DNA of 64,000 nucleotides from Antedon mediterranea (taxonomy: Eukaryota > Echinodermata > Crinoidea > Comatulida > Antedonidae), in contig NC_092677.1 in assembly GCF_964355755.1 (NCBI RefSeq), positions 26,568,101 to 26,632,100 on the forward strand, in the 5' to 3' direction. The notes below the pieces were generated by a model. It had not been told where the DNA came from. It ran no database searches and saw nothing but the letters and a program-made list of their open reading frames with translations. The position numbers were made by a program, and so were the translations under genes. Position 1 is the first letter of the stretch; the number at the start of each line of letters is the position of its first letter. Shown one piece after another: positions 921 through 33,716 of the stretch.

Positions 921-3900
921 ATGGGTGGAGTGGATTTTAGGATTCTGACTCCTGAACAGGTAATTGGTCAACAGGGGTCAGATGTCCGTCAGTCAGATGA
1001 TATATTGCAAGATCACATCACAGAGTTGAAAACACAACTGTCTCATCGTGATAAAATGATTGAAGAATTACAAGCAGAACTAAAAGAATCTCAAAATGAA
1101 CAACGGTCATCAGCTACGGAAGTATGCTTTTTTCGATTTAGAATTATTTGGTTCCTCTAATTTTAAACTTCATTAACAATTAGTTTTTGTATAATTATTA
1201 TCAATGTTAATATAATTATTATTATATTATATTTTAATCAATGTTGCCATTATTAAAGATGTATTGTCTCCCAAAAATATGAAAAGAACGATTAATTACA
1301 TCAGACTTTGAATAGGATATTTTTTAGTTTTAATAAAGTTAATCACTTCCGTAAAAAAAAATTCACTTATAAAAGGACAAAATAAATGGTTAAATTCAAC
1401 CAAAGTATCCCATTGGCTGGCAGCCAATTTGAATATTTTAAATTACTGTTTTTTTCAGGTAAATAATTTTTTTTTTCAATCCAATTTTTGGTCAAAGTGA
1501 ATAACTTATTATGTGACATTAAAATGGTGCATTTAAAAAAAAAATATACGGGACAATACATCTTTAATAATCCATTTATGTATGATTATTATCAATGTTA
1601 ATATAATTATGATTCTTATCATTTTATTGAATGTTCCCATAATGTTGTTATTCACATTAATGTAATCAAAATGTTCTGATAGGTTTTGCAGAAAGACTTT
1701 GTTCTTGGATCAACTAAATCAACTCTTTCTACGATTCACGACCGTGAACAAGTACGTATGGTAGATGGGACGAGTAAAGACATTATCATTATGAAACTTA
1801 AAACAGAACTCATGAAAAGTGAGCAAGAGTTACGTGACTTCCAGTCTCAGGTAACTTTTCAATAATATCATCAACCTAAAAAATATAATTTAATATCTAT
1901 AATTATGATTTAAAATTATTTTTTCAGCATTGCAGCATATAATCTTATATACCATTATTCATGATTGTTTTAATCAATTTTCATGTTTATATAACTATTA
2001 TGTAACGTTAAAAATGATTTCAACAAAAAATAATAATTAATTTTTGAGGAATACAAAATATTTGTTTAGAATTTATATAATAAGTGTTCATATCATAGAA
2101 AAAATAGGTTAATGGAAGTTTATCGTTAACGTCATTGTGCTATAAATAAATCAATATTAATGAAAGAGCTTAATAAGAAGTAATAAATGAAAGTAATAAT
2201 AAAAAATTCCACATTGTTGTTGTTAATGACTGCTATATATATATAACCTTTTATATACTGTAACCATGGTCCATGATATAACTAACACAAAATAACCAGC
2301 TATAATGTCCATTCACACTATACATAAATGTTCATGCTATAATGTTCGTTCACACTATACATAAATGTTCATGCTATAATGTCCATTCATTTTGAAACTC
2401 AAGAAGGGTATGATTGTGGTAGAGTTTCTGGTTTTTAGGGATTTTTTTCATAGAGGTATTGGGCGATTTGACTGTAGTGCATTATGCAAGTTAAATATCT
2501 ATTAACCCCCAAAGTACACAGACCATGGAGGTATACCTCCATGCACAGACTAAGACAAAAATTTGTTTCTAATTTTTTCTAACAATACATTTTATTAATC
2601 ATTCCATTTTCATTTGTTTGGCTAATGCATTTGTAATTAAGTAAATGCTTTCAACTACTTAATCATAACTTGCAATGCATCCATTTCACTCAGGTTTCAA
2701 ACAGAGATAAAATAGTAGATAAATTGGAAGGACTTATTAATAGATTACAAGCTGAGATTGAGATCAAGAGCTCAGAGGTAAGAACAAAATAAATAGAACA
2801 GGATGATTATTAAAATAATGAAGTAGTAGATAGAATAGGAGTGAAATGAATAGTACTATATAGTTGTATACATTTGCATGTCCTAAACCTCTGTCTACAC
2901 TATCAAACTTTATGTGACAACAAAATGTGATGTGCCCATATATGGACATGATGATCATTACCATATTTGAGCATATCGCTACCATATTTGAGCATATTAC
3001 TACCATTGGGTAGATCACACTTTTTTTGTCAAACTAGTTTAATAGTATAGACAGAGCATAAACCCTGATTTTCTTGAATTTAAACACTGCTATTTACCAT
3101 GCCATTTAAAACTGTGAATGATGTAGTTATGTAAGGTCCTAGTATCATGGAGGTATATACCTCCATGGTCCTATCATAATTAGTGTATTTTATATTAATT
3201 TAATGTATTTTGTGACAATTTAGAGGGGCCCCAGTTAGAAAGAAGTATTATCACTCATCTGGGCTGCCATTAACAGTCAATAAGTTGCTAATTAATTAAT
3301 TATTTTCAAACCACTTAATTCTGTAATTGATGCTGAGTGGCCCCTCACATACACACTCTTGTAATCTTGTATTTTCTATTTAAATGTTATTTAATACTTT
3401 AAATGTAGTACGGTGATATGGAAACTCATTTACAATATCCAATGTCAGTCAATTACTTAAACTAACACATATTAACATTACACCTAGTAACCAACTAGCT
3501 GAAGTAGGTTGTTAACCTTTAATTGTCATTATATAATGTTTTACTAACAAGAATTTAATTGGCTGCTGCTATAAGAGTGACTACTAATGTAATCACCTGA
3601 TTGGCTTGTTTTAGTTTGTGAGTTGCTTATTTGGTACAAAGCTTTTGATTGGCTGCTTTTGTTACTATCTGTAAGTGGCTAATGATTGTGTAATTTAGAT
3701 GATAGCTGATTGGCTAATGGCATTGTTCTATCTTGCAGTGTTGTAATCAACTTGAGACCATTCAGATATTGCAGGAGACACAACAGCAAGGTGCTGATAA
3801 GGTATGATTGAACAGTAGGCTATAGTATATGACTGATGATTTGACCATTAAATATGGACGAGTGACCACTCAATAAGACTGAAAATGACCATGTGATATG

Positions 3901-6873
3901 ACTGGATATGACCACTTAACTTATTAAGACTGACCACTCGGTATGACCACTTAATAGGACAGAATATGGCCATTCAATAGGACAATATGGCCACTTAATA
4001 TGTAATGTAGTCATAGCCGAATGCATGTATTTTTCATAGCTAGTGAACTGTGATTATATTTAAATATGAAATTAGCAGGTTTAGGAAAAAATACTAACTA
4101 GGCCGATGCAATAAGGTTATTAATTATTCCATTACATAATAACTTTGAAACACACTTAAATTGCACTTGCTTGTCTTGTTGTAGATCTGCGCGTTGGAAG
4201 GTCAAGTAAGGGAATATAATTCTCAATTGGACATTTCAAGAAGTGCTGCCAACAGAAGCACATCTGATGTAAGTACAATCTGCCTCCTATAAAGCTCTGT
4301 CTACACTATCAAATGTTATGTGATGTGCCCATATATGAACATGACGATATACTACCATATTTGAGCCTATAACTACCATATTTGGTCACACCACACTTTT
4401 TTTTGTCACACTAGTTTGATAGTGTAGACAGAGCTTTATACTTCTGACTCGGGTTTAAGCCCATCGTGATGTTTGTGGGCTTATACACCCCTCTAGCAGA
4501 TAAATCACTTTGTATAAACATTTTGTGGTAGTCTTGTGGCTAACATCATCATCTCAGCAGTATAAATGTGAACTATCATTTCATTTTTATTGACATGATG
4601 ATGTCATATCACTACCATATTTGGGTATACCACACCATTAACGTCATATTTACTCTTTAATAATGATAGCTGTTATCGTTGCTGTATTCATATACATTAG
4701 CCTTAATAAGTCTTGGCCTAAGGGCATGTATGTCAGTTCATATCAGAGAGTTCATTACACTAATTGGTAGATGTTTCAAGGATATGTCTAGTTCAACTCC
4801 ATTCAACAATTATCCACCTATCGCATTTAAAATGAAGGAATCTTAATTTAAGCTCTGTCTACACTATCAAACTATTTTGACAAAAAAAAGTGTGATGTGC
4901 CCAAATATGATAGTGATATGACATCGTCATGTCCATATATGGGCACATCACATCTTTTGTCACATAATTTTTGATAGTGTAATAGTACTGTAACTCAATA
5001 TCATCACAAGATATAACACATCCACATTTGTCATCAGGTTTCTCATTTGGAACGAAGAAATCAGACATTAGAAAAAGAATTAAAACAATCTCAAGACCAC
5101 AGACGGAAAGCTGTTGAAGAGGTGAGATTAAATTGTAATATAATATTAGTGAGGACACATGATTCTATTTAATACTGACCTAGTATATAATGCCTATTAA
5201 AACTTAAGCTCTGTCTGCACTATCAAATGTTAAGTAACAAAAAATTTGATTTGCTCATAGATTGACATGATGACGTCATATCACTACGATATTTGGACAC
5301 ATCACACTTTTTTTGTCAAATTTGTTTGATAGTGTAGACAGAGCTTGACTCTATTCGGCCAATTTCATTGGGCTAGTAATCTGCTACATATCCATGCTCT
5401 ATTTGGCTGCTGTTAGGCTGGTCAAAATCTCCCCAGGTTAATTTGCATTAATATTTTATGACTTGCAGAGTATAAATGTTATTTTTATTCTAGATTGGAC
5501 ATTTACAAAGTAGGCTGACTGACTGTCAAATGTCTTCCCAAGATCATCATCAAATTCTTAAAATGGAGGTATGTCAAGAATTTGATTAATTAGAATTATT
5601 ATAATAATATTTTTAATTCAATTTATAAATTTACAACAATTAAGAGGAGAGAATATGTATAAAAAAAATTGACTTGAACCAAGACACTCCTGTGCTTGAT
5701 GTGCACTACCATTAGACCACAGGAACCTCCATGCTGCAGTATGTTAAAGCTCTGTCTACACTACCAAACTTTATGTGACAAAAAATTGTGATGTACCAAT
5801 ATATGGACATGATGATGTTATATCACTACCGTATTTAAGTTATATAACAAGTTTGATAGTGTAGACAGAGCTTTAATCTGATTGGATAGAGTATAGAACT
5901 ATTTCCTAATTATATATAAAACTGAAGAGGTTAAATATTTATTTTTTTACAGCTTATTAGACGCGATGAAACGATTCAAAAGTTACGCAAAGAAGTCTTA
6001 AACCTTCAGCAACGTAACGACAATATGCAACACGAGGTGATTCATTTGTTAACTATTGTGAAAAACAACTTGTTGGTTCTAAACTTTAATAAATAATATT
6101 ACTTCTTTCACTTAAGCTCTGTCTACACTATCAAACTTTATATGACAAAAAAATGTGATGTATCCATAATATGGACATGATGATGTCATATCACTACTAT
6201 ATTTGTGCATATCACCATCAGATATGGGCATATCACACTTTTTTGACTTATAAAGTTTGATAGTGTAGACAGAGCTTTAGGCCAATCCCTATTTATAAGA
6301 ATCTGTGTTGGGTCTCAAAGGTGTCCCTAATAGAGGCATTAACACTTGGTATAACTATTTTCAGATTGATAAAACCGAAAGAAAAGCTACTCAGTTACAA
6401 GAATCACTTCAGGAATTGACATCAAAGGTAAGAAGAACTTGTCAGCAAAATGAAAGAAACCAGTTTGATTAGGCTCTTTCTACACTATTGAACTATTTTT
6501 AAAAACTGTATGTATCCAAATGTTGTAGTAATATACCCAAATATGGTAGTGATATGACATCATCATATCCATATATGGGCACATCACATTTTTTTTCAAA
6601 CACTTCCATTTACATTTTTTTTTTATTCAGAACTCTGAAAAAGACATAAAATTAAGTCAACTAGAAAAAGACATTCAAAATATGAAAGTGAAATATGAAA
6701 CGTCGGTAAAAGAATTAAGTTCGAGTGAAAAAACTCTTCAGACGGTCCAATCTGAGATTTACGATCTGCGCCGCAAAGAACCTCAACTGTCGTCACACGT
6801 ACTAGAACTGCAACGAGTGGTGGAGATGCTGCAGACAGAGAAGAAGGACGAAAGAATTGCATTGACTGCGGAG
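921..6873 (+). CDS. Coiled-coil gene, exons 1-10
   Basis: Exons: 921-1121, 1683-1850, 2694-2777, 3739-3801, 4185-4268, 5038-5121, 5494-5568, 5953-6036, 6365-6427, 6631-6873. Each has a polypyrimidine tract and AG before it and GT after it, and all are phase 0. Exon 1 (67 codons) ends in a complete 28-residue unit starting LSHRDKMIEELQAEL. Exons 3, 5, 6 and 8 are each exactly 84 nt; exon 2 is 168 nt; exons 4 and 9 are 63 nt (three heptads). Exon 7 (25 codons) and exon 10 (81 codons) break the heptad quantum. Exon 10 uses the weaker donor GTCAGT. Six of the nine introns carry MITE-A copies. Confidence 0.88.
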
Positions 6874-9800
6874 GTCAGTATTTTTTCTTTTCTCCAAAAT
6901 TAAATGAAATTTTACTATATAAAGCTCTGTTTACACTATCAAACTTTATGTGACAAAAAAATGTATAGAGTATATATATAGGTATGTCACTACCATATTT
7001 GGACACACCACACTTTTCTTTTAAAACTAGTTTAATGATGAAGACAGAGCTTTATATTATTGATACTTTTTTATATGATGGACTTACATAATTTAATTTT
7101 GTTTTACATTTGATCATAAATAAGTAAGCAATTATGTTATGTTTAAATACAGTATTAGTATGTTATATTAGTAATACTTTTGTTATATGGTAGACCTATA
7201 TAAAGTAAACAGTCGTGTAAAAATATTCTACTGCAGTAACTGTATTTTTTACTGCAGTAATGTGTGAAATGATTCTCTTCAATGTTTGTGAGGCAATAAC
7301 TGCAATTTAGAAAAAAAAAATTGCTAAATAATTGCATACATTTTTAAAGAGTGCACATAAAAATTACATTTTTTTTTAAACCGTTGCATGTATATTTCAT
7401 ATTAGCAATTCAAAAATAAATCATAAATTCTATGAAATAAAAATATAATCCAAATGTGTTTATTTTAAATTTGCATGGATATGTGTTTTGGTTGAACGTT
7501 GGAATTACTTATGGTAAGAAAATCAGTTAAGTTTTAAATACCTTCCCTGAAATGCTTATTTACTAATCTCTAGTTTTAAATGTAATACATTTACTAAAAA
7601 TATTTTGTTTGATTCCTAAAGTTCTGTGTACACTATCAAACTTCATTAAAAAATGTGATGTGCCCATATATGGACACGATGATGTCATACCACTACCATA
7701 TTTAAGCATATCACAACCATATTTGGGCACGTCACACTTTTTTGTCAAACTAGTTTGATAGTGTAGACAGAGATTTGAACATATTTGCTAATACTTTAAT
7801 CAAATTAAAATGCTTTTTTGGCTTATCTATGACTTAACCATTGTTACACATGCTTGGTACACCAAATGCCTTATATTGGATTTTAGTTTACATTTTACTT
7901 GATTATAGCCAAGTGGAATTGTTTATTCAAACTAACCTAGTGAATGATGCTATAGCTAACTATATAATAACCATTTTCTTGAATTAATCTTGTGTTTGCT
8001 AATAAATCTGCTTTTTTATGTAGTAATATTTAAAGTTGCTTCTAAAGCAAATAACAAAAAAAATGATCATAACTAACGATATAGTAACTAAACAAATATG
8101 TATTGTAATACAGCCGACTCTCTCAATCCGGAACTCTTTAAACAACCAGAAATACAAAAAGATTGATTAAAAAAAATCATATTGTATTAACAAAAAAATT
8201 GTCAGAAATTTTTATGAAATATAAAAAAAATCATTTGGAAAAAACATATTTTGTAAAAAATAGGAAATCATAAAAATGTTTTAAACATATATTGTCAGAA
8301 ATAGCAAATATAAAAAACATCCTGATACTGTGTTATACATTAGATTATAAAGATATTAACAGAAATAGGAAACTAAAGTAGAACACATTTATTACCATAA
8401 TTATGCTTTTATTGAAAAAACATAATACATGCCATAAAGTGTATTGTATGTTGAAATGAAAACATAATACATGCCATAATGTGTATTGTATGTTGAAATG
8501 AAAACATAATACATGCCATAATGTGTATTGTATGTTGAAATGAAAACATAATACATGCCATAATGTGTATTGTATGTTGAAATGAAAACATAATACATGC
8601 CATAATGTGTATTGTATGTTGAAATGAAAACATAATACATGCCATAATGTGTATTGTATGTTGAAATGAAAACATAATACATGCCATAAAGTGTATTGTA
8701 TGTTGAAATGAAAACATAATACATGCCATAATGTGTATTGTATGTTGAAATGAAAACATAATACATGCCATAATGTGTATTGTATGTTGAAATGAAAACA
8801 TAATACATGCCATAATGTGTATTGTATGTTGAAATGAAAACATAATACATGCCATAAAGTGTATTGTATGTTGAAATGAAAACATAATACATGCCATAAT
8901 GTGTATTGTATGTTGAAATGAAAACATAATACATGCCATAATGTGTATTGTATGTTGAAATGAAAACGTAATAAAATTTGTAATAAACAGGAAATGGAAA
9001 TAGGTCATATTTAATGAAAATAGGTCATATTTAAAGAAAACTTGTTATAAATATATTCTAAGCTTTCAATTAACAAAAATAAAAATGAGTCAATAACAAT
9101 ACTATAATAACACTATCAATCTAGTTTGCCAAAAAAGTGTGATGTGCCCAAATATGGTAGTGATGTGCACAAATATGGTAGTGATGTGCCCAAATATGGT
9201 AGTGATGTGCCCAAATATGGTAGTGATGTGCCCAAATATGGTAGTGATATGCCCAAATATGGTAGTGATATGACATCATCATGTCCATATATGGGCAAAT
9301 CACATTTGTTTTTGTCACATAAAGTTTGATAGTGTAGGCAGAGCTTTATTTAATCATTTGTTTCCCAACCAACAATGAATTAAAGGTTTAGAGGTTTAGT
9401 ACAGACAAATCACACACATAAAAAAAACCTTGACAAATATATTACGTTTTGATATTATTGAAATAGACTTACACACACAAGCACAAAATCTATAAGATTA
9501 ACACATAATATACTAATATATACAAACCTATATATATATATATAACAAATTCTCTTATATTATTTTATGTATGGAATTTTCATATTATTTTGCATGTGGC
9601 CATAAATCATCTAGCATTATATTTCTCATAAATTGAGGAATACAGACAAATCCATAGTTTCATAATATAACATTTTAACATTAAAATCAAAACAAAGAAA
9701 CTAAATTTGTTTTGACAGATTTTTATTCTTGTCAAATCTCCTGATTATAATTTTAAAAAGAAATTGTTTTATTAAGGTTGCTCAGAGACACGATGAAGTG

Positions 9801-12800
9801 GTCAGATTAAAGTCAGACATCTTAATAATCGAGAAAAAGCTACGAGATAGTTACAGCCAGGTACAACACAGAGGAGAAGTAATACAACAACTCAGGACAG
9901 ACATCAAGCAGAATGCTGAACAGGTAAAGGTCATTTGGAGGTCATAGTTTAAAGTTCATACTTTAAAGTTCAAATGTCAATATATATTGATATACTAAAT
10001 TTTTTTTATATTTAGATTTCAACAGCAAAACAGAAAGACGAAGTACATCAAACAATTGTAAAGTCTTATGAGGAAAAAGTAAATAATATTTGTTTTCCAA
10101 TCTTATTGTTTTAATTTTTTAAACCTTTTGCTACAAAAACCAATGCTACATACATACTGTTTGTTATAAATCATACATATGTACTGTACATACATTATGG
10201 AGTTTATGCATTTATCAATTTTAATGTTGCCTCACCATTCTATTAAGCAAAAAAATACATCTGTAATTCCTATTCTTGAATATCAAGCATAAAGTTGCAC
10301 CAAAAAGACAGATCTTTACCATGCTTTCAACCTCTGCATTTTATTCATTTTCATGTGCGTAAATCATCTCGCTTTGATAGGTACGTGACCTGAGTGATAA
10401 ACTCGAAGCGATGCAACGTAGCAGTAGTCAAGGGTCAGCGCAATTGAAAGCTGATTTAACAGAGCGGGATGTGTTGGTTCAAAATCTTAAAAGAGATGCG
10501 ATGTCATTGCAACAGAAACTGTCACATGTTCAAGCACAAGTATATCACCTTGTTCATTTTGTCATTTGTCATCATACATTATTTTTGATGATTTATTCTT
10601 TATACTGGGTAACCTCTTCAGTAAAAAAACTGTTCTCCCAGAAGGCCCAGTAAATACATTGTTACAATTATAAATAGATGATTCACCCGGTTAGATCAAG
10701 ACACAACTTTGCGCTGATTACTAGCTGCATTTAATAGCAGTTATGTTTCCATACATGTTTGATTAAAAAAATGACCGGGGTAATAATGTGAAGCTGCTTG
10801 GAAGAATTGTACAATAAACTCTATATAACAAATATTATTATTTATTATTATGTCTAGTTTTTTCTGATTTCCGAATTCTGTTGATGTACTAATAAGTAAA
10901 AATATAAACAAACACATCAATTTTAAATGTTATGTTACCATAGATACAGAAACGCGATGAGATGATAGAGAAGCTGCAACAACTACAGCAAGAAAACCAA
11001 GGAGAGGTGAGTAGACGAGAGAAAGCCATTCAGAAATTGGAAGTTGATCTGATGGCAGCACAAGAGGAACACCGCAGGACAACAGAAGAGGTAAATTGAG
11101 TGTTCAGCTCTGTCTACACTATCAAACTTTATGTGATGTGCCCACATTTTTTTGTCACATATAATAATATAATAAATAATCCAATAACCAACATACACTT
11201 AAAAACAAATACATTTTTCTATTCAGGTCAACAGGTTGACAGCAAAATATTCCCGCTTAGAAAATGAATTGGATAAATCGCATAAAAGTTACAAAGATGT
11301 TGTTGAAGAGAACGGACGTTTGTCAGCTCGCGTGCAGGCCATGCAGTTGACTGCTTCTAGCGAAACGGACATGTTGACATCAGAAGTGAGCAAGCGACAG
11401 GAGATGTTGGAAGGCGCTCGAGTGGAACAGGTTGCGCTACGAGACCAGCTTACTTTGACCGAAGATAAGCTTACACAAAGAGTAAGTTAAGTTACTTACA
11501 CTTAAGTTAAGTCATGTAACTAAACTTAAGCTTTGTCTACACTAACCAAACTTGATGTGACAAAAAAATGTGATGTGCCCATTTATAGACACGATGATGT
11601 TATATCACTACCATATTTTGGCACATCAAATTTTTTAAACTAATAATGTAGATAAAGCTTGTCTAGACTATCAAACTAGATTGGCAGAAAAAGTGTGATA
11701 TGCCCAAATATGGTAGTAATATAACATCATCATGTACCATAATATATGGGCACATCACACTTTTTTTGTCTAATAATGTTTGATAGTGTAGACAGAGGTT
11801 TAGTTTTAGCACAATTGTAGGATTGCTTAATCTTTTGTTTATGGATCAAACTAATTGAATGATTATATTGTTTTTATTAATATTTTCTATTTAAGATAAG
11901 AGAGCTTGATCATGCTCAGCACCAAAACAGAGATCTAACAAAAGAGCTAGAACAGACGAAATCAAATTTGATATCCAATCAAAGACAGCTGCAAGAGATT
12001 GATGACAAACACTTCAACATTAAAGAAGAGGTAGACTACACTTATTGTGCCCAAGTGTGAACACAGCATTATGTAACTAACAATAACATAAGTATGTATG
12101 TGTGAAAGGTAGCTTAATATGAATATGTTGTATCTTTAGGTTGCTAGACTGGAGGATACGTGTAATACAATGAACAGAGAATTACAAGGCGCTCAAGCAA
12201 GGAATGATGAGTTACATCAAGAGGTAATTAATATCTTAGTGTCTATAACACTGCAGTTACTGCAGTAACTAGATTTCTTAAATAACATATTGTTTTGTTT
12301 AATGAAAAGGTTTATGAGTCGGTCATTGCAATAAACATTGTATGATTAGCTAATTGCTTAACATTTGCATAAACAGGTTAAAAGTAAACAAAATATAGTT
12401 ACTGCAGTAACTCCAGTAATTGGAATGGTCCCATAATTATCTTGAGAAAGATCGTTTGACCAATGTGCTTTTACAATAAGTTAAGCTCTGTCTACACTAT
12501 CAAACACAAAAAAGTGTGATGTGCCTAAACAAATTTGTGATATAGTGTAAACAGAGCTTTACGCAATCTTTGTAGAGAATCTGGCTTTCTTTCAATTTCT
12601 GTAAATTTCACTTTTGATTCTGGTCACATTTAAAACATAAAGTAATGCTCATATATTTGTGTGTAGTTACAACTAAAAAGTGAAGCTTTGGAAGATTACA
12701 AGTTTGACATGTCCACACAGAAGCAAGAACTCAAAGAACTCCTTTCAAAGGTAACTTACATATTACAAATCAACAAAATAATCATGTAAAAGTACAATGG

Positions 12801-15800
12801 AACCTCTCCTTTGTTTTATAACTATGTCCAACCTCTATTGAAAGGACACCTCTATTCAGAGGACACCTCTACAATATCCCCATTTTATAGCTAATTAAAG
12901 CTTTTTACCATCACTTCTGTGTACACTATTGTACATATTTATTTTTACAGGCTCATTAACTGAGTTCAAACTGTTAAGAGACTCCATTTAACATTACTAT
13001 TTTCTACTCTCAACTTTGACCTTTAGATTGGAGAACGCGATAGCCTGTTGCAAAAGTTGGACAATGAGAATTCAAAACTCAAATCACGCAACCAAAGTCG
13101 CTCCTCTGAAGTAAGTTGACTTTTTATAATACAATCAATAATGCCAACTCTATTGACATCTTCAAGCAGTTGCTGAAAATCCATCTCTTTCGCAAAATGA
13201 TGTAATTTCTACCTAGTTTGAGCCTTATGTTTGTAGTGCTTTAGACAAAAGACAATAATTATCATTATTAATAATTATCATTATTAATAATTATCATTAT
13301 TAATAATTATCATTATTAATAATTTGTTATATTAGTATAAAACATTAAATACATACATTATATTTGTACATTGTAATGTCATTGGTTTGGTTTTAGAATC
13401 AAAGACAATCTGAGATGCTAAAGAAACTGGAAGACTCCTTGACAAAGGCACAGATGGATATGCAAGAGATGAGAAGAAGAAATGAAGATGAGGTTAGTGT
13501 TATTTATTATCTCATCATGTACTAACTTATTAGGTTATATGCATTATCATGCAATATAACCTTATTTGTATTATTATTTGTCTATTTTTGCCCAAAATAT
13601 TGCCTGTACACCACTCAAATTTATAAGTCACAAAGTGCCTCGCTTGAATGAAATAAGTATGCTCTTAACTCTTTAAAAAATCCTGGCCCAATTTGTCAGG
13701 TTTTCGAATTTGGAAGTTTTAAGACATCAAGAAAAAATGTTATTTATTTTATTTTTATTGATTCGACTTCTCACTAACTCAGTTAGTGAAGGATCTGGAC
13801 CAACAGGTGGTAAACACCTCTAAAACGGTCCAGTCCCAATTTGCACAGTGGCTGTGTTGATTTTGGAAGAGCAGACATGATGACTGGCTATATAATTTTT
13901 TTTATTAAACTACTGTTTTCTTTCTTACATGCTTCCAATAATGTTATTCGATTACTAACATTGTAAAAACATTTAATTCTATTTTGTTATGCCTTTTTGT
14001 GCTTGAAAATCTCACATCATCTCATATTATATCTCGCACTATATTATTCATTGTCTAATTGTCTCAATTTATCATCTCATCTCGCAATCATTATCACATT
14101 AATTAATATCTCACTCCAACACATACCACATTAACGTGGCACATTTTGCATTTTTATCATCTTGGCAACTTAACTTTACTCATCTAACATTCAATCTCAT
14201 TAAATATTTTTACATGTAACTTTGTCAATTTTAATTTGAAATTCAGAAAAACAAAGTTCTGTTAAAACTAGCAAAACAACTTAACACGTCTAAAGAATTT
14301 GACAACAATCAGAGGCCTGTAAATAAGCAAATTGCACTCGCATCATATTTCTCAACGGAAGTTTAATAAAGCCGCTACTGTCGCAATGTTGAATGTTTAA
14401 TCCCAAAACTGTCTATAAAATGAAAACTGTGCACTCCAATTGAATGAACACCATGTACAGTAGTACACATCCACTAGTTGCTTTGGTACCAGCTAAACAC
14501 TTGACTCATATGTATTACCTAATTCTCTATGATGTTATGCACTATATAAAGGAGGATAGACACATGTGTACAGTCTAGCACCGATTCTCTGTGATGCTAT
14601 GAAATATATGAATGAGAACAGGCACCTATGTGCAGTGTAGCACCCAATTCTCAGTGATGTTATGAAATATAATATAAAGAAGGATGTAGTAGCACAGTGA
14701 TGTAAATAAGGGTAGAAAAAAAACTATGTATATGGTATGCCCATATGATGGTGAATATATCTGACACAAAGATGGTTGGTTAAATGTTTTATAATTTTCT
14801 GGCTGCATATTCTGTTACAACTTGTCTTCATGTATTTGTATGTTCCTATACATAGCACAAATAATTCACCACAAAAAGGGTTAAACTTAATTATTTTTTT
14901 CACATTGCAAACATTTCATTTTCAACTTTTTTTCACTATTATTTAGGTTTGAATTTTTAACTTGATGGTGTAAAAATACTTGTGTGTGGTTGTTGAAACA
15001 ATAAAAAAAAGAAATAAACTTTAAAATTGTCAGTCTTTTTATTTTCATTTGTAGAGAAATGGTTTAAGCGAGAGTAATAATCAAACCTAAAAAACAAGAT
15101 AATAAAATCCGGAAAATTTTTTTCAGGCTAGAGGAATCAACAATAATATTTATATTTATTAATTTGTAAATGCGGTTTATATTAATCAGTTTTTTTTTAT
15201 AATTTTTTTTGTAGATTTCCCATAGGGACGATAGTATCGCCCAACTAAGAGAAGAATTAATGGAATCACAACAACAATATACAGCTTGCTATGATGAGGT
15301 AATTCACCAGTTTTTTCAGCTCATAAACTTTTTTATAAAACTAGACTTGAAGCTCATGTGTTATTAAAACCTTGATGGACATTTAGTAAAAAGAACAACA
15401 TTCTCGTGGGAAAACATTTTTTTCCATTCAGTCATTTTTGGTTTGAGATTTGAGTGATTTTTAATATTTTTAGTTATTGAAACTTGAGGAAGTGATTGAA
15501 ACTCTGAAAGTTGAAAATTCCAAGTTAAGTCAGTTATCAAGAGATTCCAGCGAACAAGGAAAACAACTGATAGACAAGCTATCGGGCACTGAGTTAAACT
15601 TGGCAATCAGCCAAGAAAAGCACCGAACATGTCAGCATGAGGTGAGCCAACGTGATCAGGTGATCTTAAAGTTGTCAACAGAGTTAGACACAGCACAGCA
15701 ACAATATCATGGCACAGTTGAAGAAGTAAGTATTTTACATTTTTTAATGTCTGTCTGCCCTATCAAACTTTATGTAACAAAAAATGTAACCCCATATATG

Positions 15801-18800
15801 GACATGATGATGTCATACAACTACCATATGTGGGTATATCACTACCATATTTGGGCACATCACACTTTTTTGATAGTGTATACAGAGCTTTTGAGGAATG
15901 TCATATCACTACCATATTTGTGCACATCACTACCATATTTGTGCACATCACTACCATATTTGTGCACATCACTACCATATTTGTGCACATCACTACCATA
16001 TTTGTGCACATCACTACCATATTTGTGCACATCACTACCATATTTGTGCACATCACTACCATATTTGTGCAAATCACTACCATATTTGTGCACATCACTA
16101 CCATATTTGTGCACATCACTACCATATTTGTGCACATCACTACCATATTTGGGCACATCACTACCATATTTGTGCACATCACTACCATATTTGTGCACAT
16201 CACTACCATATTTGGGCACATCACTACCATATTTGTGCACATCACTACCATATTTGGGCACATCACTACCATATTTGTGCACATCACTACCATATTTAAT
16301 GCATTTTATAGTATAGTGTATGAACATATCAACACAATGAATTGAATATTTTCAATTCTTTCAGTGTTCCAGTCAACAGCAACAGTTGTCGCATCTTCAT
16401 ATGAAATTAAGAGATTCTGAAAATGATCAAAAATTACTTCAAGAGTTGGCAGATGAAAGGCATAAAAAGGTAAATTAAAGTATTTCTTTTTTAAACAACA
16501 TTTATATCCTCGTTTTTGCTTGGCATTTATTTATTCACTGAAGCTCTGTCTACACTATCAAACTAGTTTGACCAAAAAAAGTGATGTGCCAAATAAACTA
16601 GTGATATGCCCGAATATGGTAGTGATATGACATCATCATGTCCATATTTTGGCACATCACATTGTTTTTGTCACATAAAGTTTGATAGTGTAAACAGAGC
16701 TTAAGACTTTAATGTCTTTTTTATTTCTAGATATTATCCTGTGAAAGAACCATTTACCGTCTCCAAGAAGATCTGAAAGAGCATCAACATGAGAATCAGA
16801 ATCTTGTCAGCAAGATCCAGGAGGTCGAAAGACATCTGGAGAGCGAGAAACAACTCCGAGCTGACGATGTTGAGCAATGCCGAAGCGAGATGGATGAGCT
16901 TCGCAGCCAACTGGTTGACGTCAATACTCAACTGGATGAGAAGGAAAGGGTGCAATTGAAGTTTAAAGATGAGAATTGTGGATTAAAAGATGAAAGAGAA
17001 GAGTCGCAGCATTTGATTCATTTGTTGAGGCAACAGGTGAGATTCTCTTCTTCATTAAAATACTTTTTCCTCTTGAAAAATCTTGTCTAACTCTAAAGCT
17101 CTGACTACACTATCAAACCTTATGTGGAAAAAATGTGATGTGCCTATATATGGACACAATGATGTCATATCACTACCATATTTAGGAATATTGCTACCAT
17201 ATTTGGGCACAGACAGAGCTTTTCAGTTGTGTGGTTTAGATCGATTGCATACCATCGGTCTATATTATTGAATAATTATTATCTTTTACTACACGGAAAC
17301 GGAATTAAATGGAGAAAATTCTGTGTATTGGAAGAAGTGACCAGTGGCCGTATTCACCATTCACTGATGTGAAGAGAAAAAGTATACATGAAACATTCAG
17401 TTTACACTGATCCTCCTTTGCATTACTTTAATTATTGACCTATTGTTTACATTGTTTCTATGTCAGGTTTCAGACTCAAAGATTAACATCCAGCAGCAGG
17501 AAGATAGCCATGCTAGAGTAGTATCAAACGTTGATCACCTCAAAGAAGAGCTTAGAGCGAGCAAAACAGAGCTTCAGAAACAAACATCTGAGCATGCTCG
17601 ATATAAGGATCGAGCGGATCAACTTGCGACTCAGTTGCAACGAGTGGAAGCTAACTCGACTAAGACGGTGAAAAACCTTGAGGAGCAGGTGCTTACGATC
17701 TCTTCTAAGGTAAAGCCCTGTTCACACTTGCAGTTGGAGTCCCACACTTTAAAGCCTTGTTCACACAGGTCCTTCACCCCTCTGCATTTAGTGAGTGTTA
17801 ATGCAGTAATTATGTGCGGTGTACATTACATGTTCAAAATGTTATTATATATTTTATATCTGGGCATATCACTACCGTATTTAGGCACATCACACCTTTT
17901 TGTCAAATTAGTTTGATAGTGCAGACAGAGCTTTATGATTCAAATGTTCTTGTAGGTACATGGACGAGAGGAAGCCTTGCAGAGGTTGCAGCATGAGTAC
18001 GCAAAAATGGAACATCAATTAGAAGAACAAACCGATAAGAACAACCAAGCCCAGCAATTGATAGCCTCCCTCACAGATGAGATCAAACAGTATCATGAAG
18101 AGTTAGAAAGTAAAAGAGAAGACATTCTGGGTTTGGAGTCTACCGTAACTAACCTAAAGAGGGAGCTGTTGAAAAGACAACAAGAGGTAAGGAATACAGT
18201 AGTTTTTTTAAAGAGGTACTTTTTTGTCACATAGTCAAATAAATATAACAAACAATACTATTTGTATTTATATATATATTATATTTATATAATTATGATA
18301 TTATTTATTGTATTTAGGGAGAAGCTCAGGAAGATAAATTGAGGAAATTGGAAACAGATTTTGTGTCTTATCAAGACAGCCATCGCTGTACAAACCAAGA
18401 GGTAAAAGATAGTAGGCCTATTATCAATTTATTGTATGCACTGTCTATTTCAATGTCATGTGAAAGCAACAAGTAAGGCATTGAATCATAAACAGTGGCG
18501 GATCCAGGATTTTGAAATAGGGGGCCAAAGCCTAAAAGTAGTCAAATGAAGGGCTGAGCTTAATTTGATGTCCTATCTTTTGCATTACAATTTGCATAAT
18601 TTAGAGAGTGGCCAGCTGGGACCCCACTTGGATCCACCCCTGATAACCATTGTTTAGACATGGCACATAAAGCTCCTATAGTGGTTTGTAACCATGTGAA
18701 GATTTTTGACATGCTGCAGTCTAAGGGGAAAACAATTGTCAAAAATGATTTTCTAAATTGATTGAATACATAAATACATAAAAATGAATAATATACAATT

Positions 18801-21800
18801 AATGTTTAGTTTTCACATGTTCTTTATATTCAATTTCAATAGGTTGATAGTCGTGATCGTGATATTGAGAATTTAAACACCGAAATCTATGCATACCAGG
18901 AACAGGCGTCGGCTCAAGAAGCTGAACTGAAGGAATTGCGAGTAAAATGTCAAGACTTTGAGCGAGCGTTAGCCTCTGTGAAGGAGCAACGTAATAGTGC
19001 CGCTAAAGAAGTTAAGAGGCTGGAGCAGAGTCTGCAACAAGTTCAGCAGAATGTGACATCATCAAAGCAGAAATATAAAGCTGAGGTAAGTTTGTTTGTG
19101 AACTTGAAATTGTTCACGGTTTTTTTGTCTTCTATCTTCTTAGTTTATTCATAAAAACATATAATATATGAAGCTCTGTCTACACTATCAAACTAGTTTG
19201 TGATGTGCCCATATATGGTAGTGATATGACATCATCATGTCCATATATGGGCACATCACTATTTTTTGTCAATTTGATAGTGTAGACAGAGCTTTGAAAA
19301 AGCATGTATTTTGTTTAATTTTAGTTGATGCGATCAGAGGAACAAGCAAAGAGATTGAAGGAAGAAACGAGTGATTTACAGAAACAAAAAGACTTAATGA
19401 AAGCTGAGCTGTCTGCCAAAGATGAACAGTTACAAAGAAAGCAGCAGGAGATACTGAAGATGAAAAGCCAAGCCGCTGCCAAAGTGGATGAGGTATTATT
19501 TTAATATATATCTCTTTTGCCCACTCCCAACTCATCTCATTGTTTGCAATCTGTGTACCAAAGAATATTGATGCAGGTTGTTGAGATTCTGTGGTCGTAT
19601 TCACCATTCACACTTTAGGGAAATACTTTAAATTAACTGAAACACTTACTATTTAAAGGAATTATCTCACTTAAATGTGATTGGTGAATACGAACACTGA
19701 TTCTGACTGGGATTTTTTAGATATTGATAAAGTTACTATTTGTCACCTATTGGAATTATTGGCGAAATAATACATTCTCTCTGTTTTCAGATTGAGCATC
19801 TAGAGGCCAGAATTCAAACAGCTCAGATAGAGATTAGAGAACTACAAACAATTGCAAGACAATTGGAGAATGAGAAGGAAGCAGTAGAGGTGTCATTGAA
19901 ACAGTTGGAGGAAGACTTATCAGAGGCATCACATCAATACAGAAATGCTGCACAAGAGGTATATTAAGCTCTGTCTACACTATCAAACTTTATGTGACAA
20001 AAAATGTGAACATATATGGACATGATGATGTCATATCACTACCATATTTGAGCACATCACACATTTTTTGTCAAACTAGTTTGATAATGTAGACAAAGCT
20101 TTAGAGATAAGGATAACACAGTCTGTTTTTAGAAGACTATTATTAGTTAAATAGTAGGATAATTATATAGTAAGAAGCTTTCTAAGAACTAGTTAAATGC
20201 AGAGAAATGTTTAGCGGATTCTAGTCCAGGTAACCACAAACTATGATCGACCTTTCAGGGAGTTTCCAGTTTTAGAGAGTAGTTTCAGGAACTAGTTACA
20301 TCATGTTTAATTCATTTTTTAGTGGATTCTAGTCCAGACGACCACAATGTAATAGTTTGAGACCTTTATCTTTTGTGGAGTTTTCCAGTTTTTAAAGAGT
20401 CTGGCTTCAGAAGAGTTGATTGGAACCTTTTTTTTTTATTACAGCTTGCTCACCATGAAGAGAAGCTTATGCTAATGGAGAACAGTCTGCAGACGACACA
20501 AGAACAATTAAGTAGTAATGTCTCGCAGGTTGTCCGTCACGAACAATCAAACAAACGTCTACAAACCGAGTTGATGTCTAACAAGAAGAAGGTCGAGGAT
20601 CAAGAAACTAAGTTGAATGAGCAAAAGCAGTTGATGGAACGGTTGAAGAAAGAGTTAAATGAAACACAGGTTGAGCTTGAGGGAACTAAAGAAGCGATGG
20701 TGAAGAATCGGCAGGATTTAAGTGCTTTGGACGGCCAGTACCGTGATGCAATGGAACAAAATAGAATGATACAATCCAAGGTTTGTTCCATTTACACCTT
20801 GTAAATTATTTATTCGCAGTCAAACACCAAAAACGTTGTACATGATGATAGGTCCTATTTGCCCCTTATTTACATAATGTACAATAAAAACGGACAGTGA
20901 TTATACCTATGATTTTGAGTATCTTAAGCTCTGTCTACACTATCAAACTGTATGTGACAAAACAAATGTGGTGTGCCTATATATGGACATGATGATGTCA
21001 TCAATCAATTTTGTGTGTGATATGTTGCAGCTTGAGAATGAACGACAAAACATGGAACGTGCACGAGAAGAGTTACAGTATGAGAGGCTACAGGGGCAAG
21101 AAGCAGCGTTACAGTTGAAGAACTCCAAAAAACAAATAGCAGAAATTGAACAAGAAATGAATACAAATAAACAGTACTATAAAGCAGACAAGAACAAGGT
21201 TAGTTTGATCCATACAACTATATTTTAATCTACGTGGGACAAGCACACGATTTTCCGCTTACAGTTACTGCTCTTCTGTGTGAATTGGTCTTTAAGCTCA
21301 CCCTCGGTTATTAGCCTTATTTTTTATAAACCAAATCGTTTATCCATAAAGGCTACATTCTTAGTTATACGCCCATTTCCTAGAATATTACTTTCTTTTG
21401 TCCATAAATTTTATTTTTAGCTAAATGAGTTGGAGACACTCACGAGTCAGCTACAATCTGAGTTAGACTCTGCCCACCAGAGGCTAACACTGACAAAGCA
21501 GGAGTTAGCAGAGAGAGATAACCAGTTAAGAGTTGCTAGAAAGAGCCTAGACTCTGTGCAATCAGCCTCCCAGAAGCATACCTCAGAGATAGCCAAGTAT
21601 GATGAGTTGATTAATCATTTTCAGTTAGAGGCTGAGGAGAAAGAGGAAGTGATCAGGAATTCAAACCGACAGGTACTAACAAATATATCATGCATTGTGT
21701 CTCTGTAATGTTACTGACGAAATATATTCACTTCATCCTAAAATCTGTATTTAAAATTTGTCAGGAGCCTGATCACCCTCTAAATAAATTCTTTAAGCTT

Positions 21801-24800
21801 AGCCAAACTGGTAGACTGATCACTCTGAATCAAAACCTCAAACGCTGCCGACAAATATTTGTTTATAATTCATGTATTTAATAGCAAGTTTATAAGATCT
21901 CTTTAGATTCATTGGTTACAAGCTTTCTTTTTTCAATTCATTTTATAGTATGTAAATCAAAATTTAAACCAACTAAATATCATTGTACCTCGTTGTTAAA
22001 ATGACAATAAATATATCGTACAATAAAGGCAAAATTTGATACAGCACTATATACACAACTAAATTTCTGTAAAATAATAATTTCAGTTGAATTGAACCAT
22101 GGAGAAGATAAATAAATTAATTATTTCCTCTATGATTGAATTAATTCCTTCCTTAAATTCCTATTGATTAAAAATGAATGATTTATTTAACTTTCAGCTA
22201 GAAGAGTGTCGAATGCAGCTGGACAGTGTTCACAGGCAGCTAGCAGAGACTCAAGGCAAACAACAGGAAGCCATGCACCAGCTAGGTGATAGGGCTTCAG
22301 TAGCAGCTAAGGTCCAAGCTGAGCTTAACAAAGCTGACCAACAGAATCAGATACTTAGTCAACAAGTTAGTATAATCATTTTTGTTTTATGTGTTGTTCT
22401 GATTCTGTCCCATTTGTGGTGTTGTGGCTGGGTTCAAGTCCTGTCAGTGATCAGATTTTTTCTAATGACTTCCTAATTTATAACTCCACTCCCAAAGACT
22501 TTTAATAAGACTTTGTTTATGTAGAGCATCTTGTGTATATGTTTGTCTTGTAAAGAAGATTTTTTTTAACGAATAGTGAATGAATTTGCTTATGGTTATC
22601 TATATATAAATTTACGTAAGGGCAAAATTCGGTAAATCGCGCCTTACTTCTAGAATTTTCACTCGATGGTATGTAAAGTTGGTTCGTACTTTCGGTACTG
22701 ATTTTAACCGCCTGATGTAACCCTGTTTACTAATTAAATTGAGTTAGATAATTAGTTATTGACGATTAAAACGAATTTAGGTTCAAAGATTTGCCCCAAA
22801 TAGGGGTGTTTTCCGATCGTGGTATACACTGTCTAATGGATGTCCATCTTGAAAAATACCTGCCAAAAAAATGCGAGGAGGCTTCGCATTTTTCTATCTC
22901 CTCCTACGATAATTGTTTTTAATAGCTGAAAACCGGTTGAACAGCTAGAGTACACCATCATAATGTTGAAGACAGGCCGATTTTCTTTAAAAAATACTAT
23001 TTTGATAGATTTAATATACGATTATACAAATGTATTGATTTGCGATGAATGGAACATCCCAATCTCTCAGTCTGCCAGAGTTTGGTTTAACACAAGTACT
23101 GTAGGTAAATTTATGAGCCCTTGGTTTAACACATACGGTAGGTAAATATATGGGCCCTTTGAGAATAAACTTGCAATACTTTGACAATACTGTAAATACC
23201 TATTAACTATTTTTCATTTGAATCGAACATTTCTTACTGTGAATGTTCGTACTGTTAGATGTAATATAAAAATATATACAAATAAACTTTATTACTGAGA
23301 CTGTGGATAGGCTCTACTGTTAGATATACAAATAAACTTTATACTGACAGTTCCTTCTCAACGTTTGTATTAATTAATAATTACCAAAAATATAAACGTC
23401 GTAGTGGTGTATCGTGACATGTACTTTAATATTTCAATCGATTATGACAGTGACAGTTTTAACAAAGTATTAAATCGCAAATGTTTTAGGCCTACTGTAT
23501 TTAGAGGTATATTATTTATAGGCCTATAAAACATGAACAAAATATTTCGTTACTCAGTGGATAAAGAATATATTTAAAAATTGTTCCTCTTTGTACCTAT
23601 CCGCTTTCCCATCCCTCAACCCTAATGTTACATAGCGAGGAGGCTTCGCATTTTCCTATCTCCTCCTACGATAATTGTTTTTAATAGCTGAAAAACGGTT
23701 GAACAGCTAGAGTACACCATCATAATGTTGAAGACAGGCCGATTTTCTTTAAAAAATACTATTTTGATAGATTGCTAGAGTACACCATCATAATGTTGAA
23801 GACAGGCCGATTTTCTTTAAAAAATACTATTTTGATAGATTTAATATACGATTATACAAATGTATTGATTTGCGATGAATGGAACATCCCAATCTCTCAG
23901 TCTGCCAGAGTTTGGTTTAACACAAGTACTGTAGGTAAATTTATGAGCCCTTGGTTTAACACATACGGTAGATAAATATATGGGCCCTTTGAGAATAAAC
24001 TTGCAATAGGTTCGGAAAATGTTAAAAACCAATTTCTATTATTTGAATCGGTAAACAGTTTCCATTTATTATACATTGATAATGAAACATGAAATATTCC
24101 TATTTATGTCCCTCGAGGTTCATTACAATTTATATTTAGTAGTCCCACGGACTTCATCTTAGCCACTCCCCCGAGTGCTAAGGCCAAATTTATGATACCC
24201 TACTTTCTATGTAAGTTTAGTTACAGTTAGTTCTTGACGATAATACAACGAATTTAGGTTACACCCTTCGGCCGCGAAAACGTTTCTGTACAAATATGAT
24301 ACCGATTGGCTTTATTTCATTCAACAGCGACCATAATCTCGCCAATTACAGGATAGATAAACTATTTTATTATTGATGTGCTTATAAATTAAGACTCATG
24401 TAAACAGCTTGATTACATCATTTTACAGACAAACGAAACTTTTTTAAACCTACTGTTTCAATAACTGAGTATAATACTGTATACGTTTTCATAAGTAAGT
24501 GCATATACATTTTCGTGTTTTCATTGACGAGATTGTAATAGTAACTTCAGTAACTATTACAGTACTTATTTATTATACGACACAAGACAATTGTATCTGA
24601 CAGGTACGTACATTATTCTAAAAAATAAGTCTAGATAGATCCCTTAGGCGTCATAAATCACAGGCCAACAAATCAGTACTCATGACAGAAATTCGACCCA
24701 GTTCAACACCACAACCGATGATTTGCCCTAAATATTTAGGTAGACTACAGTTTAATTTTTCACTGAATAGGAGCTTGAATTTCCGATTTCCATTTCGCAG

Positions 24801-27800
24801 AATGTCTAGGTCTATTTATTTAGTTTGGTTCTTATAATATATAAATACAATCAACTTTATTACTGCGGTTCCATCACCACCACCACGTGCCGCCCAATTC
24901 CCGTACATACATTTCCATTTCTCCCTAATTTCTTTAATCCACATAAATTAATTGTCCTTTATGGAATCCAGTATTGGTTTTGTTGTCTCTATTTCTGAAT
25001 ACCCCAATTAGGGGGACACTTCCGTTTTTGTTTAGTGTCCCAAAAAAGTCCCCGTCCGTGGATTCTACTGTATTCGAGAACCATCTGTGAGCACCCCTAG
25101 ATGGTACGCGAGCGAAGCGAGCGTGCCATCTAGTCCTTGGCAATTTGCCTAAATATTTAAAAACAAAAAAATGCATTATCGTCATCAAAATCATGCATTG
25201 ATTGTCTAAATTGAAGCGTTGGAAATTCAACCATTTCAAACCATGTGGTTGGAGCTAATTATGAATATTTGATTAGCTTCTGAATTTGAATTCTAAGAAA
25301 GAAACGTATTTAACCATCTTTAGGTGAAGATGTATGAAGACAAGATGAAGAAACTGCGAACAGAGCTTCAAAAGGTCAACGAACTAAATCATGAAAGCGA
25401 GACGGAGGTACAGCGTCACGAGTCGAAGCTACAACAACTAGTAGACAGGCTGGAACTGTCGGAAGAGAAGCACAGACAGAGCCTACATGAGCTTGCTTCA
25501 AGGGAAGAACAGATAGTAGTGCTAAAGGTTGAACTAGCATCTACTGCTGAGAAATTAAGGCATAGAACAGATGAGGTATGTACAGTCAACTCTCCCAATA
25601 CCGGACACCTTTGGGCTGGCCAAATATGTCTAGCTTTCTGGAAAGTCTGGTATTCGGAATGTGTTGTTAATGGTTAAAAATAGGGGATTTTGGTCCCTGA
25701 GCAAAGTCTGGTGTTGGGACAGTATCTGGTTTTCAGAGAGTCTGGTATTGGGAGAGTCGACTGTACTACCATTGTCAAAAGTGGAATTGTAGCTTGATAC
25801 TTTACCTACCAGTCCCTTGGTCCTGTAATGTGCCTAGGTATTTTGTCATGTGATGTGCTCATGTGTGTGATGTGCCCAGGTATTCGGAATGTGTTCTTAA
25901 TGGTAAAAATTTTGGAGATTTTGGTCTCTGAGAAAAGTCTGGTATTGGGAGAGTTTCTGGTTTTCAGAGAGTTCAGTATTGGGAGAGTCGAGTTATACCA
26001 TTGTCAAAAGTGGAATTGTAACTTGATGTTTGCCTAGCAGTCCCTTGGTCCTGGGTTCCAATCCAATCAGATGTCAGGACTTTCTCATGACAACTCACTC
26101 TACAAAGAATTGTTTAAAGACTTTGTTTATGTACGTACGGTGCCTTTTCTTGTGAACAGGATTGCCACCTTTATGAATGATAGTGAATGAATTCACATAT
26201 GATTATTCTTTACAATTTGCCTAAATATATTTTTAAAAAACAAATAAGTGATAAGCAATCAGAACATACTTTATTTTCCCCAGTTGTATTAATTGCAATG
26301 TACCTTTTTAATACAGACAAATAAAATCAGCACAGCGTTAGAGGCGATGCAAAATCATTTGCAAATGACGACAGAGGAGAGGGACCAATTAAGAGCTTCG
26401 TTGGAAGAGTCGAGAACAAGTGGTGATAAGCTGCAACAGGAGAGTGAGCTAGTGGTGTCTAATATCAACACGTGGGTACAACAACAAAAGTAAGTGATCA
26501 TTTAGTATCATCATTTTTATTATTATTATCGCTATCATTTTCATTTAAAAAATAGAAATGTTTACATTTTGTTCAAATAACTTTATCTGGCTTATAATTA
26601 AAGATGTTTTGTCCCCCAAAAACATAAAAAATGAAGATTTAATAAAATCAGACTTTTAATAGGCCATTTTGTAGTGTCAACAAAGTTAATCACTTTCATA
26701 GAAAAAAAAACCTGAAAAATAGAGTTTTCACTAAATAATAAAATATAACGGTTATATTCAGCCAAAAACTACTATTATTTTTTCAGGTAATTTTTTTTAG
26801 ATCCAATTTTCGGTGAAAGTGAATAACTATTATGTGACATTAAAACGGCATATTATAAGAAAATTGTTTTTCTAATTTTTTTAGTGGACAATATGTCTTT
26901 AATGTTAATTTTTAGCAATTGTTGAATTTATATTCTTTTATAGGCAAGCGAATGAGAGATTGGGGAACAAGATAAGAGAGCAGAATCAATCTATCCGTGC
27001 CCTCAACAGTGAAAAAGAGTAGGTTTACTTGTATACATGTACAATACAATAAAACATATATTATATCCCCAAATTAGAAAGTATCTGAACTTTGAAAATG
27101 AGAAACAACCAAATGAATTTTTTTTTCTACAGTTATTTAATTTTATTCATATTTCTCCCCCATTCTACAGGCAATTAATTGAAAGAGTGGACAGTCTCAA
27201 CCAAATGGTTAACAGATTAAAAGTTGAGAATGAAGAATTGAAGATTTCAGCTGAAAGGTTAAAAGCATTACAAAACCACTCAGCACATCAACAGGCTTTG
27301 CTACACCAACTTAAGAACAGACTGCAGGAACATGAGTAAGTTCTGAAGCTCTGTCTACACTATCGAACTTTATATGACAACAAAATTTTGATGTGCCCAT
27401 ATATGGACATGATGATGTCATATCACTACCATATTTGGGCATATCACTATCATATGATGTCATATCACTACCATATTTGGGCACATCACACTTTTGTCAA
27501 ACTAGTTTGATAGTGTGGACAGAGCTTAAGAGATAGCATTTGTTTATTATTATACACATTTTTACTATTGCACACGTCCATACACATGGTGTATCAATGA
27601 ACGAAATTGTACTGGTATAGTTTTAAAATTAGTAATAATACACGGCAAATAAAACATTTTTTTGTCTGACAGAAATGATCAAGAACATGAACTAGCCAAC
27701 AAATTAGCCACCATTGAAGATCTTCACATCAGACTGAAGGCAAATGTAGACTCCATCCAGCAGTTAAATCAACAATTGAACACTTTGAATAAGGAGAATT

Positions 27801-33488: not shown

Positions 33489-33716
33489 AGATGACAAATT
33501 TCGTTTTTGTAAAAGCACAAGTTAACGGAGTACTTACTCGAACGTTTCGATCTCTATCAGAGATCCTTCTCAACTGACTGCGGAGTGTTAATGCCAAGAA
33601 TGACCAAGCTGCATTAACACTCCGCAGTCAGTTGAGAAGGATCTCTGATAGAGATCGAAACGTTCGAGTAAGTACTCCGTTAACTTGTGCTTTTACAAAA
33701 ACGAAATTTGTCATCT
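33489..33716. repeat. Perfect 106-bp inverted repeat with 16-bp spacer
   Basis: Left arm 33489-33594 and right arm 33611-33716 are exact reverse complements over all 106 positions by my reading. Each arm contains the hairpin GATCTC-TGATA-GAGATC followed by GAAACG, a layout typical of Penelope-like retroelement termini. Either two pLTR-like pieces are inserted head-to-head, or this is a recent fold-back duplication or an assembly artefact. Confidence 0.85.

Follow-up and report, generated by a model that had tools for sequence, protein, structure and literature searches.

Gene Model and Extent

The DNA analysed here (the window) comprises 64,000 nucleotides of the forward strand of contig NC_092677.1 of the crinoid Antedon mediterranea (assembly GCF_964355755.1, positions 26,568,101 to 26,632,100), and its first part carries a gene predicted to encode a long coiled-coil protein. 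The gene was rebuilt with our own dynamic-programming exon finder, which was seeded with a list of phase 0-0 candidates and scored codons and splice sites, with no preference for exon length or phase. It returned 41 exons on the + strand between positions 921 and 28815, with a sole stop codon at the end. In the predicted model, exons 1 to 35 (921–25575), which form the repeat region of 1,818 residues, are of phase 0-0 in 35/35 cases, and exons 36 to 41 (26317–28815) lie beyond it and show mixed phases. A preliminary description of this DNA had placed all 41 exons within 921–25575, where only 35 were found; the figure of 41 is reached when the last six exons are included. Before counting, 13 small or stop-containing pieces proposed by the finder between the 35 repeat exons were left out, one of which, a 38-codon piece of phase 0-0 at 14247–14360 (score 25.7), may be a genuine exon. 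In addition, at least three further exons were found upstream of the window, at positions -2126, -1393, and -914 in window coordinates, supplying an ATG and 130 residues, so the gene begins before position 921. The whole predicted gene has at least 44 exons and a protein of about 2,278 residues.

When the finder was trained on two myosin genes only, 33 of the 41 exons were returned identically, including 16 of the 18 whose length is a multiple of 28 codons; among the other eight, the 5' border was shifted in seven and the 3' border in one. Two acceptors were ambiguous. For exon 2, position 1683 (score 7.3, 56 codons) competed with 1692 (score 6.3, 53 codons), the latter picked by the first run, and for exon 11, position 9786 (score 4.5, 46 codons) competed with 9777 (score 1.5, 49 codons). 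The counts given below use 1683 and 9786.

Many Exon Lengths Follow a 28-Codon Unit

Eighteen of the 35 repeat exons were exact multiples of 28 codons (nine of 28, five of 56, three of 84, and one of 112), amounting to 32 units. This is the number given in the preliminary description, with which the rebuilt model agrees as long as exon 2 starts at 1683; with the acceptor at 1692, the multiples fall to 17/35. The remaining 17 exons are not multiples of 28. At a chance of 1/28 for each exon, 18 such lengths among 35 would occur with a probability of 2e-17. Among the 24 exons that are multiples of 7, the 18 multiples of 28 correspond to a probability of 4e-7 at a chance of 1/4, and cutting at randomly chosen heptad borders produced on average 4.7 multiples of 28, with a maximum of 13 in 20,000 trials.

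Taken modulo 7, the lengths of the 35 exons left 0 in 24 cases, 4 in nine, and 1 and 3 in one case each, so that 33/35 were either 0 or 4; with exon 11 at 9777, the corresponding figures were 25, eight, one, and one. Six multiples of 7 were thus found besides the multiples of 28, and the seventh previously claimed appears only with this second acceptor. Lengths of 4 modulo 7 are those that a stutter, with three residues fewer, yields. Under a rule drawn up post hoc, 31/35 exon lengths are sums of 28, 25, and 21, compared with 35% of all lengths between 20 and 112. Among the 17 exons whose length is no multiple of 28, the share of hydrophobic residues was 0.69 at heptad position a and 0.41 at d when counted from the exon start, and 0.45 and 0.55, respectively, when counted back from the end.

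The Units Share a Profile Locked to Exon Borders

The 32 units showed a common hydrophobic core, with V, I, L, M, or F at position 1 in 28/32, position 8 in 26, position 11 in 24, and position 15 in 27 (L15 itself in 20/32), together with preferred polar residues: D or E at position 5 (24/32), E14 (20), Q19 (14), R23 (11), and E28 (18). The core of the fourth heptad was more polar, being hydrophobic in 9/32 units at position 22 and in 8/32 at position 25. Of the motif proposed earlier, the hydrophobic residues at 1, 8, and 11, E14, L15, and E28 were recovered, but the S-x-R-D element had been overstated (S2 in 5/32 and R4 in 8/32), and E27 was present in 4/32 only. The introns sit just before heptad core position 'a', as had also been proposed, and both the unit counts and the hydrophobic positions support this placement.

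The similarity among units exceeded that expected from heptads alone. The common-profile check suggested in the preliminary description gave a unit pair score of 12.5, compared with 4.3 +/- 0.44 for a heptad rotation null, in which 0/5000 replicates reached 12.5; two other heptad-keeping nulls (heptad shuffle and shuffle within position class) gave about 4.3 +/- 0.4, again with 0/5000 each. With the unit's own exon left out of the profile, phase 0 was the best of the 28 phases in 24/32 units, and when the profile was built from first units only, it was the best in 12/14 internal units of multi-unit exons. Applied to the 17 exons unused in its building, the profile reached a cyclic score of z 13.8 over heptad-shuffled sequence, compared with z 1.5 for the last six exons and z 2.0–3.4 for other coils. 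A register-free test of exons 1 to 35 found the best self-shifts at 28, 56, and 84, above all 300 heptad-block shuffles. The repeat region was entered as 1,819 residues, one too many, in the shuffles of this last test and in that on unused exons.

Two further analyses concerned double units and charge. An alignment of the 56-residue double units was of no use, since its rows had been pushed out of register, with 98 columns for 56 residues. When periods of acidic residues between 5 and 60 were scanned, the best were 14.05 in exons 29–35 and 11.75 in exons 1–35, and no clear peak was found in either set at the myosin-like charge period of 28/3. Taken together, the units are alike in sequence beyond heptad periodicity and are locked to exon borders.

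Myosin and Other Coiled Coils of the Same Genome

Three genes of the same genome served as controls: two myosins, A and B, both with Myosin_tail_1 matches, and one TPR-like gene with a TPR match. From these, 27 exons were picked by hand, all of the internal type, with both borders in phase 0 and at least 19 codons; exons of other phases, terminal exons, and a 21-codon start-type piece of myosin A were left out. Multiples of 28 were found in 2/27 control exons and multiples of 7 in 5/27 (6/28 with the start-type piece); for the 16 exons taken from the two myosin genes together, these numbers were 1 and 3, respectively. The best self-shift was 28 in both myosin proteins and not in the TPR-like protein. 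Like the gene described here, the myosin II rod (PF01576) is thus a coiled coil with a 28-residue period, but in the two myosin genes of this genome that period is not locked to exons, in agreement with the preliminary description. A period of 28 residues alone therefore brings no exon lock, and such a lock was not common to the three control genes.

Shared ancestry with myosin rods was also considered and rejected: no match to PF01576 was listed for exons 1 to 41 or the three upstream exons at E-value limits of 0.1, 1, and 0.01, and the unit profile fitted the two myosins weakly (z 3.4 and 2.0).

Origin of the Array

We consider exon duplication followed by intron loss the best reading of the array and hold it to be fairly probable. 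The sequence itself shows the predicted exon lengths and phases, the common profile, the exon lock, the marks at intron-less joins, and the controls; duplication and the succession of steps are inferred from these. In the ancestral gene, each 28-residue unit, corresponding to four heptads, would have been one 84-bp exon, and copying of this exon would have built a tandem array over most of the central 1,818 residues. Because both borders are in phase 0 and fall just before core position 'a', each copy would have preserved reading frame as well as coiled-coil register, and the rod could lengthen without damage. Later loss of some introns between units, more frequent toward the array's 3' side, would have produced exons of two, three, and four units. 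In addition, some units may have been shortened by one heptad, to 21 residues, or by three residues, to the 25 of a stutter, both of which would leave the next exon in core register.

Two signs favour lost introns, in line with the explanation of multi-unit exons offered in the preliminary description. First, 12 of the 14 intron-less unit joins within exons have codons for E, K, or Q at the join, and 11 of these 12 end in AG, compared with 238/581 elsewhere (Fisher p 5e-4; permutation stratified within exons, p 0.007). Since the third-position G is silent here, the most suitable reading of this mark is that it was once the exonic part of a splice donor. Second, among the 18 multiples of 28, multi-unit exons are concentrated toward the array's 3' side (Spearman 0.68, p 0.002), such that all 7/7 multiples of 28 in exons 29–35 are multi-unit, compared with 2/11 before them, with the cut picked post hoc. 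Intron loss by way of reverse-transcribed mRNA would be expected to show such a 3' bias.

Several observations weigh against this history. Similarity between units did not rise with proximity along the array (Mantel r -0.015, P 0.41), with a mean of 12.2 for neighbours and 13.9 overall in a set of 40 units; no recent tandem duplication is therefore visible, and the duplications would be old or blurred. The case for duplication is weakened by this result, but that for exon modularity is not. Of the earlier proposal, the common unit locked to exon borders is supported, and its descent by duplication from a single 84-bp exon is probable. Exons 36 to 41, at the extreme 3' end, retain their introns, where simple 3'-biased loss predicts otherwise. 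The AG mark is based on 12 codons, and at the less certain joins of other exons it is weaker and not clear, with AG in 11/19. Phase 0 was not the best phase in 8/32 units, and exon lengths of 85, 45, 32, and 35 codons are no sums of 28, 25, and 21. Finally, exons 3 and 7 begin in phase 2 under myosin training, and the third upstream exon, of exactly 28 codons, scored -5.8 on the unit profile.

The AG mark would suit equally well an unlikely history of intron gain, in which a 28-residue array grew uninterrupted, like that of myosin rods, and introns were inserted later at the same AG proto-splice site at the ends of many units, the intron-less joins being sites not used yet. AG/GT is in fact read at 3/14 of these joins, and the myosin rods of this genome illustrate that a period of 28 is possible without an exon lock. 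Such a history requires many independent insertions, given 34 introns between 35 exons, every one of them of phase 0 and directed to a site ahead of a core position, and the 3'-ward position of multi-unit exons is that expected for loss.

We regard as quite improbable that constraint produced the pattern without common descent, with phase-0 introns before 'a' being best tolerated, exon lengths drifting to multiples of 7, and 28 preferred for packing reasons. In its favour, 12 of the 17 exons with other lengths likewise begin with V, I, L, M, or F, the period of 28 is common to myosin, and neighbouring units lack similarity. On the other hand, the control genes, with multiples of 7 in only 5 of their 27 exons, have no heptad lock, and the unit profile includes specific polar positions (D/E5, E14, Q19, R23, and E28) and is valid in unused exons. 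An artefact of exon prediction, or of favourable borders chosen by the reader, for which the ambiguous acceptors of exons 2 and 11 and the eight borders shifted by myosin training could speak, is very improbable given the 33/41 exons that foreign training returned exactly and self-shifts of 28, 56, and 84 that are independent of unit register.

Known Systems and Significance

Its exon lengths, intron phases, and unit similarity place the gene beside other genes built from exon-sized tandem repeats. Fibrillar collagen, a rod protein with 54-bp exons and exon lengths that are multiples of a short unit, probably grew through duplication of exons; unlike the present gene, it forms a triple helix of Gly-X-Y units and no coiled coil. 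NLR and related leucine-rich-repeat (LRR) genes are described as having exon-repeat modularity and a known growth by exon-sized repeats (PMC6642158). They share with our gene units of about 28 residues, borders at a fixed point of the unit, and frame-preserving exons of one or more units; in NLRP3, for instance, exons of 171 bp each encode two LRRs, one of 28 and one of 29 residues (PMC6642158). They differ from it in that the LRR fold is a solenoid and not a coiled coil. Our searches of the open-access literature, outside of which most subscription journals lie, turned up no coiled-coil gene described as having 84-bp exon units. Exon modularity is a known gene structure, and what is new, as far as searched, is a coiled coil whose 28-residue period is kept as an exon unit.

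A coiled coil in which the period and the exon unit still coincide would preserve a living record of the way long coiled-coil rods came about, and the gene makes testable growth by exon duplication, intron loss on the 3' side, and the part of splicing in whole-unit changes of rod length. Whether the rod is a truly modular system at the gene level, with one 84-bp phase-0 exon of four heptads copied more than 30 times, appears evenly balanced to us. If so, gain, loss, or skipping of exons would change rod length in steps of about 4 nm with frame and register kept, and alternative splicing could tune the length of the rod.

Concerning possible splice sites within exons, the intron-less joins at 11006/11007 in exon 14 and at 15641/15642 in exon 22 have the scores of strong donors (13.0 and 12.5, respectively), so that shorter, in-frame versions of these exons, ending where a unit ends, are possible.

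Identity and Predicted Structure of the Protein

The only Pfam match over the cut-off was to ATG16 (PF08614), in the stretch of exons 26–28 (38.4 bits against a cut-off of 33.7). It covers profile positions 65–178 of 200, in the coil only, and is most likely a generic coiled-coil match. ATG16 carries WD40 repeats at its C-terminus; in our Pfam scans, no WD40 match was listed for exons 36 to 41 or any other part of the gene, and no LRR match was listed for exons 1 to 41 and the upstream exons. Searches against the PDB gave no match for the upstream exons plus exons 1–9 (432 residues), exons 30–41 (778 residues), or the C-terminal 330 residues. When paralogues were sought in the genome with the C-terminal 330 residues, exon 22, and exons 29–35, these matched only the gene's own exons, bar one weak match on C6 (E 0.004, with an exon of 77.3 codons), which reads like the coil of a cGMP-dependent kinase. 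Distant relatives may have been missed because the genome search scores the best candidates only (85 of 118 in one search).

An AlphaFold2 single-sequence model of exon 31 alone consisted of one helix over residues 2–111, with a mean pLDDT of 97, and is uninformative on dimers. With a helix rise of 0.1485 nm per residue, the 1,818-residue repeat region would make a rod about 270 nm long. From its sequence, the product would be a long coiled-coil rod, presumably dimeric, which may act as a spacer or tether, probably at a cytoskeletal, centrosomal, or ciliary site. It may resemble PMFBP1 or CCDC18-like coiled coils of sperm and centrosomes. The coordinates of the exons in the window are collected in Table 1.

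Table 1. Predicted exons of the coiled-coil gene, in window coordinates, with the source of each row or a remark on its borders.
Exon	Position	Strand	Source or remark
1 of window (67 codons; not first of gene)	921..1121	+	final 28 residues (LSHRD...) are one unit
2 (56 codons, 2 units)	1683..1850	+	alternative acceptor 1692, giving 53 codons
3 (28 codons)	2694..2777	+	5' border shifts with myosin training
4 (21 codons)	3739..3801	+	5' border shifts with myosin training
5 (28 codons)	4185..4268	+	exon finder
6 (28 codons)	5038..5121	+	exon finder
7 (25 codons)	5494..5568	+	5' border shifts with myosin training
8 (28 codons)	5953..6036	+	exon finder
9 (21 codons)	6365..6427	+	exon finder
10 (81 codons)	6631..6873	+	exon finder
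11 (46 codons)	9786..9923	+	alternative acceptor 9777, giving 49 codons
12 (21 codons)	10016..10078	+	3' border shifts with myosin training
13 (53 codons)	10381..10539	+	exon finder
14 (49 codons, taken as 21 + 28)	10944..11090	+	intron-less join GAG/GTGAGT; 5' border shifts with myosin training
15 (85 codons)	11227..11481	+	exon finder
16 (45 codons)	11896..12030	+	exon finder
17 (28 codons)	12140..12223	+	exon finder
18 (28 codons)	12667..12750	+	exon finder
19 (28 codons)	13027..13110	+	exon finder
20 (32 codons)	13397..13492	+	exon finder
21 (28 codons)	15215..15298	+	exon finder
22 (84 codons, 3 units)	15474..15725	+	exon finder
23 (35 codons)	16365..16469	+	exon finder
24 (102 codons)	16731..17036	+	exon finder
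25 (81 codons)	17467..17709	+	exon finder
26 (77 codons)	17956..18186	+	exon finder
27 (28 codons)	18318..18401	+	exon finder
28 (81 codons)	18843..19085	+	exon finder
29 (56 codons, 2 units)	19325..19492	+	exon finder
30 (56 codons, 2 units)	19791..19958	+	exon finder
31 (112 codons, 4 units)	20445..20780	+	exon finder
32 (56 codons, 2 units)	21031..21198	+	exon finder
33 (84 codons, 3 units)	21421..21672	+	exon finder
34 (56 codons, 2 units)	22198..22365	+	exon finder
35 (84 codons, 3 units; repeat region ends)	25324..25575	+	5' border shifts with myosin training
36 (first outside repeat; phase 0 in, 2 out)	26317..26489	+	exon finder
37 (phase 2-2)	26944..27018	+	exon finder
38 (phase 2-2)	27171..27335	+	5' border shifts with myosin training
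39 (phase 2 in, 0 out)	27673..27901	+	exon finder
40 (47 codons)	28197..28337	+	exon finder
41 (last; carries stop codon)	28606..28815	+	exon finder

Intron Repeats and Neighbouring Features

Many introns of the gene contain, on both strands, a short inverted-repeat element with the core GCTCTGTCTACACTATCAAA (for example at 2888, 4294, 5208, and 27348), which looks like a miniature inverted-repeat transposable element (MITE). Allowing up to 3 mismatches, 21 matches to it were counted in the window on the + strand and 18 on the - strand, 33 of the 39 lying before position 30000. Two 21-bp tandem arrays, at 9139–9269 in intron 10 (6.2 copies) and at 15905–16297 in intron 22 (18.7 copies), consist of units similar to the inner part of this element. 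The long intron 10 also holds a 42-bp tandem array at 8417–8973, with 13.3 copies and 98% matches.

A second gene was found on the - strand at 33538–41365, with C2H2-like motifs, recognised by eye, and an acidic repeat of 27 residues that corresponds to an 81-bp array of 10 copies at 40116–40925; no Pfam match was obtained for the two pieces of this gene that were scanned. Among markers of affinity, a tektin fragment matched PDB entry 8snb, a sea urchin structure, with 290 bits, compared with 156 bits for the entries that followed, which would suit an echinoderm or a related animal; a search for COX1 gave no match. Finally, two 23-bp minisatellites were detected in the window, at 44708–45170 (20.1 copies, 100% matches) and at 52050–52909 (37.4 copies, 98% matches).

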